Positions 60,097 through 64,000 of a stretch of DNA of 64,000 nt are shown here, one piece after another. Made by a program: the position numbers and the translations under genes. Where the stretch lies: contig JAPYUM010000004.1 of assembly GCA_029940535.1 (NCBI GenBank), positions 24,296 to 88,295 of the forward strand, in the 5' to 3' direction. This DNA comes from Vicinamibacterales bacterium (GTDB lineage Bacteria; Acidobacteriota; Vicinamibacteria; Vicinamibacterales; UBA8438). The notes under the pieces are model-generated. The model was not told where the DNA came from and did no database searches. It saw only the letters and a program-made list of their open reading frames with translations. Position 1 is the stretch's first letter, and each line of letters begins with the position of its first letter.

Positions 60097-60265
60097 AATT
60101 AGCGGACACCATAGCAGAAGTCTGAGTCGAAGGTGCGTCACGTGCTTCTCTGCGTTGAGCCCGAACATCCACACGACGTGATCCGGGTGCTTCCCGCAGA
60201 CCCAGCCCCGCCGCGGACCGACCACAGTGAATCGGGTCGGCTCTCCGACCTCGGACCATTCAGCG

Positions 60266-60510
60266 CTACTCTGCACGCAGCACCTCAAGCGGGTCGACCC
60301 GCATCGCCCGTTGGGCCGGCAGATATGCCGCCAGCGCGGCTGCCCCGAGCAGACACAGCCCCGCCGAAACGAGGGTGGCCGGATCGCCCGGCTCTACTTC
60401 GTAGAGCAGCGCGGTCAGCAGTTGCGACAGCGCGAGCGCGCCACCGGTGCCCAGCACCAGCCCGCACAGCGCCTGCCTAGCCGTGCGCCCGAATCTGCCA
60501 GCCGTCTCCT
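60266..60510 (-). pseudogene. C-terminal fragment of a MacB/ADOP-like ABC permease
   Basis: Minus-strand frame ending at 60266 reads GRTARQALCGLVLGTGGALALSQLLTALLYEVEPGDPATLVSAGLCLLGAAALAAYLPAQRAMRVDPLEVLRAE. This is the C-terminal TM pair of FtsX/MacB-type permeases (ADOP in acidobacteria), with the classic AxxxPAxRAxRVDPxxxLRxE ending. The rest of the roughly 800-aa protein is missing upstream, where a transposase fragment joins at about 60510. It is a truncation by rearrangement. Confidence 0.8.
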
Positions 60511-60599
60511 ACTCATGCCGTTCACGCAGATCGACCACATGCGTCACGCCGACATCGACGAGCCCCTGCGCGTGGACGCCGAGCCCGGCGAGCCGCCCG

Positions 60600-60960
60600 A
60601 CGACCCCGGGAATTCCACGGTGAACTTCCACGGCGAGTCGAGGCGGAATGACACCCATCAGTCGACGACCGATGGGGAGGCGATGCTGCATAAGAAGGGA
60701 CGAGGCAAGGAAGCCAAGTTGGCGTATCTGGGCCACGTGCTGCTGGACAACCGGGACGGGCTCGTCGCCAATGCCTGTGTGACCCATGCGCCGAACGCGA
60801 GGCGGCGGCGATCCTGCTGGCGGCCAGCGCGCCCCCCGGCAGTACGGTCGGGGCCGACAAAGGCTACGACGTGGCGAGTTGCGTGGCGGCGGTCCGTGGC
60901 CTGGCCGTCACCCCGCATGTCGCCCAGAAGGCCCGGCTTGGATCTGCAGATCGTGCAATG
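60600..60960 (+). mobile_element. IS5-family transposase fragment, frameshifted
   Basis: The plus strand reads NFHGESRRNDTHQSTTDGEAMLHKKGRGKEAKLAYLGHVLLDNRDGLVANACVTHA in one frame and then, after a single-base shift near 60788, EREAAAILLAASAPPGSTVGADKGYDVASCVAAVRGLAVTPHVAQ in another. These are the middle and DDE-type C-terminal part of IS5-family transposases (FHGExRxNDTHxSTTD, GADKGYD..VAxxRxLxVTPHVAQ). The start and end of the element are missing and no terminal inverted repeats were found. Limits are approximate. Confidence 0.8.
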
Positions 60961-61019
60961 CCTACAATTCCGTCGACTAGTCCTAGAACGTCACGGCACG
61001 ACCCGCGAAAAGCGCCTCG

Positions 61020-61718
61020 ATGACGGACCCGGCGCTGCTCGATCTCCGCGCTGAAATTGCGCTCGTGGATTTCCGGATCGAGGAACTGCTCGGCCGGATC
61101 AAGGCACAGAGTTGGACGAACCCGATGGAGAATGACCTCAGCGTAGAAGCGGCGCTGCCCAATCTGCTTGACGCGGCTTTGGATGACCAGTCTGTTGCCC
61201 GACTACAGGCGGTCGTCCGTACGACTCCTTGGCTGGCCGCAGGTTCAGTGCGGTCACTCGTGGTGCAATTCGGGGCCAGCCCAGGCGCCGCTGCGGAAAC
61301 GGACCCGGCTGCCGATGGCCCTCGCCTCGCGGCGGACTGTCGCCACACACGCAACTATCTCTGGGCGGAGCTGATGCGCCGGAGCCTGGATGTGCTCGCC
61401 TGTCCCCGGTGTGGCGGACGCTTGACCGTAATCGCCCTCATCGAAGATCCCGCAGTGCTTGCGCGCGTCCTCCGGCATCTGGGACTGCCGACGGACATAC
61501 CCGAGGCCCAGCCGGCCCGAGCACCGCCGCTGCACCTTGTCGTTGATGCGCCTCTGACTGAGGTCGCTGGCGACCAGTTCCGCTCCGACGAACCTGCCTG
61601 CGCCAGCCGATTCCACCCCTCAGCCAGGCAGAGGTGTGCCTCCCCGTCTGGAATCACGCGTGACCGCAACCCCTCGAACGGGCATCCTCAGCACCATGCG
61701 CTCCCTGGAGGCCCGTAG
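61020..61718 (+). pseudogene. Chimeric ORF with IS91-type transposase C-terminus
   Basis: A 232-aa open frame. The first part (TDPALLDLRAEIALVDFRIEELLGRIKAQ) resembles small phage or plasmid DNA-packaging-like proteins and ends in unmatched sequence. From about codon 110 it reads NYLWAELMRRSLDVLACPRCGGRLTVIALIEDPAVLARVLRHLGLPTDIPEAQPARAPPL, the conserved C-terminus of IS91/Y2-type transposases (LMRRxxxxDVLxCPxCGGRLxxxAxI). The N-terminal catalytic part is absent. Probably two unrelated pieces fused by deletion. The tail leads to the repeat at 61748. Confidence 0.7.
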
Positions 61719-61747: not shown

Positions 61748-61796
61748 CAGGGCGGCGCTCGGAGGCGGCGTCGAGCGGGCCTAATGCCGTCTATCG
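61748..61796 (+). repeat. Short hairpin repeat E, copy 1
   Basis: Begins CAGGGCGGC, then a hairpin GCTCG (61757-61761), loop GAGGCGGCGT, CGAGC (61772-61776), then CTAATGCCGTCTATCG ending at 61796. The same elements recur at 63373-63427. It lies about 190 bp after the IS91-type transposase tail and 50 bp before the VWFA gene. Confidence 0.75.
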
Positions 61797-61846
61797 TCAT
61801 CCTCCGCCTGTGCTCTTGATAAGATTGGGGTGTCGTAAGTCCATAG

Positions 61847-63316
61847 TTGTGCTTTCATTACCCCATGCTGTCTGGAACAGTCGTTCTCGATCACGTCATC
61901 ACTACGCCGACATCGAATCCGGTGACGGTTAGGCAGAGTCTTCACCGACACCGGTGGACGGTTACGCCTGGTTGGCGAGGGCGGGTGTCACCCCGGGGTC
62001 CGTGCCTACTGGCGTTGTTGCTCTTGATGCTCGGACCTCACCAAGGTCGAACGGTACTGGCCCAGACCGAGAGTCAGCTGTTCGTCCAGGTCTTCGCTGC
62101 AGACGGGTCGCCCGTCACCGACCTCACTGCCGAAGATTTCGTGATCGATCAGAACGGCGTCGAGGGCCGGGTGATTCGGGCCGAGATCGTGGAAGAGCCT
62201 CTGCGTCTAGCATTGCTCGTCGACGACGCTGATGGGGCCGACCCGTACTTTCGGGTTCTGCGAACCGGGTTGCCGATCTTCATTGATGCGTTACCCAGGA
62301 GGAGCCAGGTATCGCTCGTGTTGCTGTCGGGCAGGCCTCGAATCGTCGTTGATCACACAGAGGGACTGGCAAAGGTCAAGGACCGACTCAACGGACTGTT
62401 CACGAACCAGGGCACGTCGGCCGGTTTCTTCGACGGCCTCGACGAGACCCTGGCAGGCTTCGACCAGCAGCTCAACTGGCCCGTCATGGTAGTCGTCACC
62501 ACGGACGGCGCCTCCAAAGTTGATCTTTTCAGGCAGGCGAGATACACCGACTTTACAGAGCGGCTCGCCAGCAGCGGAGTGACCGTGTATGCCCTGGGAC
62601 TAAGCACGCCGAGAGGTGACGGGTTTCAGACTCGTCTTGTGGAGGATGTCACTCGGCTGTCGGGCGGTAGATACCTCACATTGAACTCGCCCAGTCAGGC
62701 GGTGACCGACCAACTCACTATCATTGCCGCGGAGATCTCTCGACGATATGCTGCGTCATTAAATCAGTACTTGGTCGTGTTCGAAGCGCCACCAGGCGCC
62801 AATGCCGGCGCGCGCGCTTCGGCCGGCGTGCGTCGCTCCGGTGTGACGCTGTATCTCTCGGCCGACGGCCGCCCGCGTTCGGACGGACTGACAGGGGCAG
62901 CCGCGAGGGCGCTCGCCATTCAGGAGGTCAACGACGCAATCAGCGCCAAGCAAGCCCAGTTAACGGCGCTCCAGGCGGAGATCGAGGACCTGCAGCGGGA
63001 GGCTAGCGCACTCGTCGGAACGACCCGACAGGCGGCGGGTGGGACCGCGAGCAGCGGGGGGGGGCGAGCGGAACCCTGGAACGCCGGAGAAGTGGCCTTT
63101 GCGAACGGACAAATGGACGAAGCGACGGCGCTCTACGAGCAGGCGCACCAAGCGGACCCTAGCTGGGGAAAACCGCTGTTCAAGCTTGGACTCGTAGCGC
63201 TGAATCAGGGCGATGTAGCGACCGCGGTCACCTACTTCGAGCAGGTCGTCTCGGTCGAGCCTGATTCGGAAGAAGGCGCCCAGGCTGCCGAGTTCGTCGC
63301 GCAATTAAAGCAATAG
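61847..63316 (+). CDS. VWFA-domain protein with C-terminal TPR
   Basis: A 489-aa exported protein of the VWFA-related acidobacterial type. The start is ambiguous: TTG 61847, ATG 61865 or GTG 61922 (MTVRQSLHRHRW), none with a clear ribosome-binding site. A TM/signal segment (GPCLLALLLLMLG) is followed by VQVFAADGSPVTDLTAEDFVIDQNGVEGRVI, a VWFA domain (LRLALLVDDADG, VSLVLLSGRPRIVVDHTEGLAKVKDRLNGLF, MVVVTTDG, VTVYALGLSTPRG) in which the MIDAS DxSxS is replaced by DDADG, a coiled coil (AKQAQLTALQAEIEDLQREASAL), and a TPR (AGEVAFANGQMDEATALYEQAHQADPSWGKPLFKLGLVALNQGDVATAVTYFEQV). It lies between two copies of repeat E. Confidence 0.85.
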   Translation: MCFHYPMLSGTVVLDHVITTPTSNPVTVRQSLHRHRWTVTPGWRGRVSPRGPCLLALLLLMLGPHQGRTVLAQTESQLFVQVFAADGSPVTDLTAEDFVIDQNGVEGRVIRAEIVEEPLRLALLVDDADGADPYFRVLRTGLPIFIDALPRRSQVSLVLLSGRPRIVVDHTEGLAKVKDRLNGLFTNQGTSAGFFDGLDETLAGFDQQLNWPVMVVVTTDGASKVDLFRQARYTDFTERLASSGVTVYALGLSTPRGDGFQTRLVEDVTRLSGGRYLTLNSPSQAVTDQLTIIAAEISRRYAASLNQYLVVFEAPPGANAGARASAGVRRSGVTLYLSADGRPRSDGLTGAAARALAIQEVNDAISAKQAQLTALQAEIEDLQREASALVGTTRQAAGGTASSGGGRAEPWNAGEVAFANGQMDEATALYEQAHQADPSWGKPLFKLGLVALNQGDVATAVTYFEQVVSVEPDSEEGAQAAEFVAQLKQ

Positions 63317-63372
63317 CCGGCGGTCGCGGTGCCGTAGAGCGCATCATAGAGACTGCCTTCTCGGGAACTGTG

Positions 63373-63427
63373 CAGGGCGGCGGCGGGCCTCGGAGGCGGC
63401 GTCGAGGGGGTCTAATGCCGTCTATCG
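63373..63427 (+). repeat. Short hairpin repeat E, copy 2
   Basis: Same plan as copy 1: CAGGGCGGC, hairpin CCTCG (63388-63392), identical loop GAGGCGGCGT, CGAGG (63403-63407), then CTAATGCCGTCTATCG. Compared with copy 1 the closing base pair is swapped (G-C to C-G) on both sides, a compensatory change. A truncated glycosyltransferase gene begins immediately beyond it. Confidence 0.75.
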
Positions 63428-63618
63428 GCCCCCACAATAGCGAACGTCTGGTCCACGCCATAGTGCGCGTGCAGGTCGGTTCCGCGACTGACGGACTTTG
63501 CCAGCAACGTCACCTCGTGACCGAGTGCGGCGAAAGCCCGGCACATCTTCATCACGGGCACGCTGTTCGCAGCGGTCGATGGCAATGTGGCGTCGCAAAC
63601 GTAAAGGATACGCATCAA
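63428..63618 (-). pseudogene. Glycosyltransferase N-terminal fragment
   Basis: From the ATG at 63618 the minus strand encodes MRILYVCDATLPSTAANSVPVMKMCRAFAALGHEVTLLAKSVSRGTDLHAHYGVDQTFAIV, the N-terminal Rossmann half of a GT4-type glycosyltransferase (MKILYV..PSTxxNSVxxxxMCxAFxxxGHEVTLL). It then runs into repeat E and a stop (GADRRH). The donor-binding C-terminal domain is absent, so the gene is cut at the repeat. Confidence 0.75.
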
Positions 63619-64000
63619 CTTGCTCCGTCTCTCCGTTACAAGCCGCTGCCCGGCTCAGCAGTTGGCGGCGGGTCTGCTGTGAGTGCGTATCCGCGGCGCT
63701 GCAGGATGGGCTCCATGACGACCGTCAGCGCCTTCCCTCCGTTAGTGTCCGACCCGACGCACCCTGACGTCGGGCCGGGCAACCTAAAGATATTCAATTG
63801 TCAAAGAACCTCACGGACACGGGCTACTCGGCCCGGCCCGGGTCGTCCGGCAGGATACGCCGAAGGAAGTCAGCCCGTCGGTGTGACAGGCGACATCGGT
63901 CCGAGCAGGATCCGTTCCGTCTGCGGCCCCCGACCGCTGTGGCGCTATCGCCGGGAGAAAATCGACCTGTGGCGCTCCGCTGGGTCCGATAGTGGGCGTT
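63619..64000. other. Region without a supported gene
   Basis: About 380 bp upstream of the glycosyltransferase fragment. On the minus strand ALTVVMEPILQRRGYALTADPPP could be the end of a gene but no start is in the window. GTTCTTTGACAATTGAATA (minus strand, near 63800) contains TTGACA but no matching -10 was found. The ORF-track frames here have poor coding bias. I see nothing else to annotate. Confidence 0.5.

Follow-up and report, generated by a model that had tools for sequence, protein, structure and literature searches.

The window, a 64-kb stretch corresponding to positions 24296-88295 of contig C84 in a 4.83-Mb, 228-contig genome (the source genome, G000), carries two short direct repeats close to its right-hand end. 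Remnants of IS5/IS1182-type transposases (60227-61051) lie directly upstream of the C-terminal remnant of an ISCR/IS91-type transposase (61020-61718, plus strand), which lacks the HUH/Y2 domain and matches NCBIfam ISCR_clade_Ia (1e-5). The first repeat, c1 (61751-61796, plus strand), is located 248 nt past the ARAPPL end of this truncated transposase and consists of a hairpin region and the 16-nt tail CTAATGCCGTCTATCG (61781-61796), with the boundary read as TATC|GTC. The second repeat, c2 (63382-63427, plus strand; tail at 63412-63427), has no transposase beside it. The segment between the repeats (61797-63381, plus strand) holds a gene called at 489 aa (61847-63316, plus strand; the true start is perhaps further in), whose product has a weak VWFA match and TPRs. 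On the other side, c2 cuts a glycosyltransferase gene after codon 63 (63427-63615, minus strand); homologues are about 390-480 aa in length, and the rest of the gene, encoding the C-terminus, was not found within the window. By direct alignment, c1 and c2 (46 nt each) are identical at 42/46 positions, including the loop GAGGCGGCGT. The tail has two exact matches in the window, where 0.41 would be expected even when three mismatches are allowed, and three in the whole genome (c1, c2, and one site on contig C220). The preliminary description of this locus, which reported a repeat present twice with the same loop and tail, one copy following an IS91-type transposase tail, the other truncating a glycosyltransferase gene, and both bracketing a VWFA gene, is borne out on all of these points.

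The preliminary description also proposed that the repeats are oriIS, the replication-origin ends of an IS91-like element, and this proposal is supported by the tail, its place behind transposases, and its sharp boundary. The C-terminus of the remnant has six matches in the source genome, itself counted, and the copy on contig C101 retains a Y2_Tnp domain (5.6e-21) and is followed by the tail CTAATCCGTCCTATCG at a place matching that of c1. Nineteen transposase loci of the order (Vicinamibacterales), all with 346 nt or more of 3′ flank, were picked blind to the motif, and a tail with no more than two mismatches to CTARTNNNNYCTATCG was present 224-407 nt downstream of 13 of them; at a fourteenth, a tail with three mismatches occurs at 264 nt. 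Control stretches had at least three mismatches to CTARTNNNNYCTATCG, with one exception. In related genomes, copies do lie 3′ of IS91/ISCR transposases, which is the check that the preliminary description had proposed. ISCR1, ISCR2, and ISCR15 have related tails (TTTATACTTCCTATACC, TTTATTCTTCCTATACG, and TTTGAACTTCCTATACG) behind their transposases at about the same distance, and the published ISCR1 oriIS is GTGGTTTATACTTCCTATACCC (PMC13023784). Three of the 13 transposase-linked tails bridge to the oriIS of these three elements, and intermediate tails such as TTTATACGGCCTATCGGC (L056, L060) connect the form found in the order to the ISCR form.

The boundary of the element was delineated from 92 distinct sites, at which conservation runs up to TATC|GTC and is random beyond; the first base after the tail is T in 84 and the second is C in 89, followed by background. 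The flank reads GTCN, equivalent to NGAC on the other strand, in 95/106 cases. Amongst solo copies, homology on the right-hand side ends at the tail or a few bases past it and homology on the left-hand side ends 40 to 220 nt before the tail, and a sharp right end with a variable left end is the pattern expected of one-ended transposition. No empty site of an insertion was found. Several copies (L119, L122, L092, and L094) consist of the tail only (16-25 nt), with no upstream hairpin region. In the source genome, a detected transposase adjoins only 2 of the 11 tail copies. Copies unlinked to Y2 transposases, which the preliminary description held to speak against an oriIS, therefore do occur, although the tail coincides with a sharp element boundary; moreover, unlinked copies are compatible with oriIS because solo right ends are documented one-ended products of the IS91 family (PMC3189936). 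Taken together, it is highly probable that c1 marks where a decayed ISCR/IS91-type element originally ended and that c2 is a solo oriIS, both representing right ends. The transposase copies found in the source genome look truncated, and therefore the oriIS system may be a fossil there.

The hairpin forms no part of the basis for this identification, which relies on tail sequence, tail position, and boundary. The stems of c1 and c2 (GCTCG/CGAGC and CCTCG/CGAGG) both still pair, as first described, and the compensatory change claimed for them is real at one pair (G-C to C-G); however, another of the four differences, which turns C into G beside the stem, abolishes a further possible pair. The predicted hairpins of c1 and c2 are no more stable than those of shuffled sequences (z = -0.25 and -0.29). 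Covariation, the main argument of the preliminary description, does not hold across copies: in 55 distinct copies anchored on the 3′ arm, 61% of positions pair, compared to 60% with the letters of the 3′ arm redealt, and 570/2000 shuffles attained the observed pairing. Stems can be drawn at oriIS, with neither covariation nor excess stability. Because pairing in the 55 copies hardly exceeds that of redealt letters, the two paired substitutions that distinguish c1 from c2 cannot be taken as a sign that pairing is under selection. On the other hand, AACGG-N5-CCGTTAAC is kept in 58/95 copies versus 1.5% of shuffled ones, and this conservation suggests that it may matter as sequence; c1 and c2 belong to the minority of copies that lack it.

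Within the order, oriIS ends occur mostly without a transposase, head to tail around ordinary genes. An indel-tolerant search revealed a wider tail family, and the pattern CTAATNNNNYCTATCG is strongly over-represented in the order: 52 genomes together contain at least 161 copies, compared to 8 for the reversed pattern (162 genomes searched). Neighbors no more than 3.5 kb apart have the same orientation in 21 cases and the opposite in one (p = 5e-6, a value that overstates independence, given the relatedness of copies from one genome and the draft state of most of the genomes). Genome G251 (L109-L112) has 19 oriIS copies and no transposase match with a C-terminal query. Contig G466:C25 carries a transposase followed by four oriIS at gene-sized spacing, with passengers encoding Ig-like, CAAX-protease, and RHS-repeat domains. 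The layout of c1 and c2 is repeated on G000:C101 (transposase, oriIS, 188-aa ORF, oriIS). On this contig, a solo oriIS (L034 42-130, minus strand) cuts an amidohydrolase-like ORF, a parallel to c2 and the glycosyltransferase gene. Tails 17 bp apart were identified in G044:C160 and G442:C347. L117 2355-2387 and L083 1501-1540 show tails doubled at this distance and a 7-bp repeat, CTATCGT, behind the tail, an arrangement resembling the insertion of ends into a tail already in place. Beyond the order, one match each was found in 2 of about 195 genomes of other Acidobacteriota, which is compatible with chance, and the tails of two other subtypes were absent from viral contigs. An exact scan of 84,980 genomes for the subtype of the window recovered a SAT150 pair, apparently on the same contig as in G003, and otherwise coincidental matches with no flanking context.

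That G003 pair (c4 and c5, L004 1502-2060), which has the CTAGT variant of the tail, is inverted around a 127-aa ORF with no Pfam match and is the only inverted pair of this subtype seen. Together with the short hairpin and conserved tail, it would suit REP/REPIN palindromes spread by a Y1 (RAYT) transposase, a reading that was rejected as very improbable since it is the tail and not the pairing that is conserved, copies sit behind IS91/ISCR transposases, and neighbors are mostly direct. Units of gene size in direct orientation, with a short site closing each of them, could also represent an integron-type cassette array with attC-like sites moved by a tyrosine recombinase. However, inspection of c1-c5 by eye did not reveal the paired core sites in the expected order (RYYYAAC ... 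GTTRRRY), and the tail recurs at a set position behind IS91/ISCR transposases, with a sequence like that of their oriIS, so that attC-like sites are hardly credible here.

The repeats thus being read as oriIS, the VWFA segment looks like a passenger, judging from the following: within the surrounding 6 kb, it alone matches the examined stretch of a sister species of the same genus (G003), it is followed by an oriIS there in different surroundings, and c2 cuts the glycosyltransferase gene. Positions 61832-63357, which fall 35 and 24 nt short of the two ends of the c1-c2 segment, are 94% identical to contig G003:C25 and are the sole part of the window between 58 and 64 kb to match the 10.5 kb of C25 examined. 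In G003, an oriIS of a different subtype, CTAATGTTGTCTATCG, lies about 115 nt beyond the segment, and a further oriIS in the same direction is located 4.8 kb upstream. In two species, an oriIS therefore lies no further than about 120 nt from this gene; none was detected near the more distant orthologues in G011, G006, and G008. In the source genome, the window and contig break off in the first part of another oriIS region, one of a second subtype (63945-64000, plus strand), as the same stretch precedes the tail CTAATCCGTCCTATCG on G000:C102. This repeat probably broke the assembly, and two G057 contigs likewise start just ahead of a second-subtype tail.

The bracketing of the VWFA gene may alternatively have arisen by ordinary recombination or deletion amongst dispersed oriIS remnants and IS debris, with no transposition of a gene together with an oriIS. 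IS5/IS1182 and other IS debris lies nearby, IS801 fragments in Pseudomonas were judged to be mostly rearrangement products (PMC3189936), and the oriIS behind the VWFA gene is of a different subtype in G000 and G003. This scenario is possible, if rather unlikely, as it is at odds with the 21:1 head-to-tail bias, the precision of the right ends over about 92 sites, and the oriIS no more than about 120 nt from the same gene in two species. Most likely, c2 would have taken the VWFA gene along in a one-ended, rolling-circle transposition event.

In the IS91 model, replication begins at ori and stops at ter or a look-alike (PMC5714925, PMC3189936). A likely mechanism by analogy is that a HUH transposase supplied in trans would nick at TATC|G, and replication would proceed leftwards through the VWFA gene until it reached c1 or a different NGAC-like site. 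The resulting single strand with gene and oriIS would then integrate elsewhere at an NGAC/GTCN site, often next to a resident oriIS, and head-to-tail arrays would build up. A solo oriIS could thus move the DNA on its left, and where one oriIS follows another, the upstream copy may offer an NGAC site where replication or insertion ends. This would account for units of gene size, the bias in direction, and left ends that vary. The observations behind this scheme are the tail identity, its place relative to transposases, the sharp right and variable left ends, the GTC flank, the head-to-tail bias, and the recurrence in G003. The general form of the scheme, in which oriIS in this order is a free-standing mobile end, present as short copies that are served in trans, capture the gene on their left, and insert beside resident tails, is put forward tentatively and is more doubtful than probable; if true, it would be a rolling-circle counterpart of integron gene-cassette arrays.

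Solo oriIS placed head to tail around ordinary genes suggest a simple way of moving genes. According to a 2018 paper, no ISCR element had been experimentally shown to transpose (PMC6218425). The copies described here form a natural set in which ends are sharp, sites are numerous, and one passenger recurs, and they provide exact substrates for testing ISCR-type movement of neighboring genes, including the capture of a gene by two successive oriIS. In addition, CTAATNNNNYCTATCGTC can serve as a search signature for unannotated mobile segments in genomes of the order. The tail type, its spread in the order, and the chains of solo ends seem to be new, as a literature search, whose coverage included few subscription journals, found no paper on such tails or chains.

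Similar to the oriIS of ISCR1, ISCR2 (ISVsa3), and ISCR15, the tail described here is about 16-22 nt long, lies 3′ of a related transposase gene, and delimits the element, although the order has CTAATNNNNYCTATCG in place of TTTATNCTTCCTATACG and its copies are mostly devoid of a transposase. Right-end fragments of IS801 (229-679 nt) transposed and mobilized adjacent DNA, and their one-ended products also have a fixed right end and a left end that varies, the targets being the tetranucleotides GAAC, GGAC, CAAG, and CGAC (PMC3189936); NGAC, the other-strand reading of the GTCN flank, is close to these targets, although the orientation convention may differ. Unlike those products, the ends found here form chains of solo copies at gene-sized spacing, with copies down to about 60 bp of shared sequence. 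A resistance gene is sandwiched between two oriIS in the case of ISCR28 (PMC12772301), as genes lie between two successive oriIS here; however, the extra oriIS there is on an ISCR28 remnant, whereas those in the order are mostly bare and their passengers look unselected. As a working comparison, integron gene cassettes likewise form head-to-tail, gene-sized units that each terminate in a short site, but no attC core order was seen in c1-c5, and the repeats of the order would move by rolling-circle chemistry rather than by a tyrosine recombinase.
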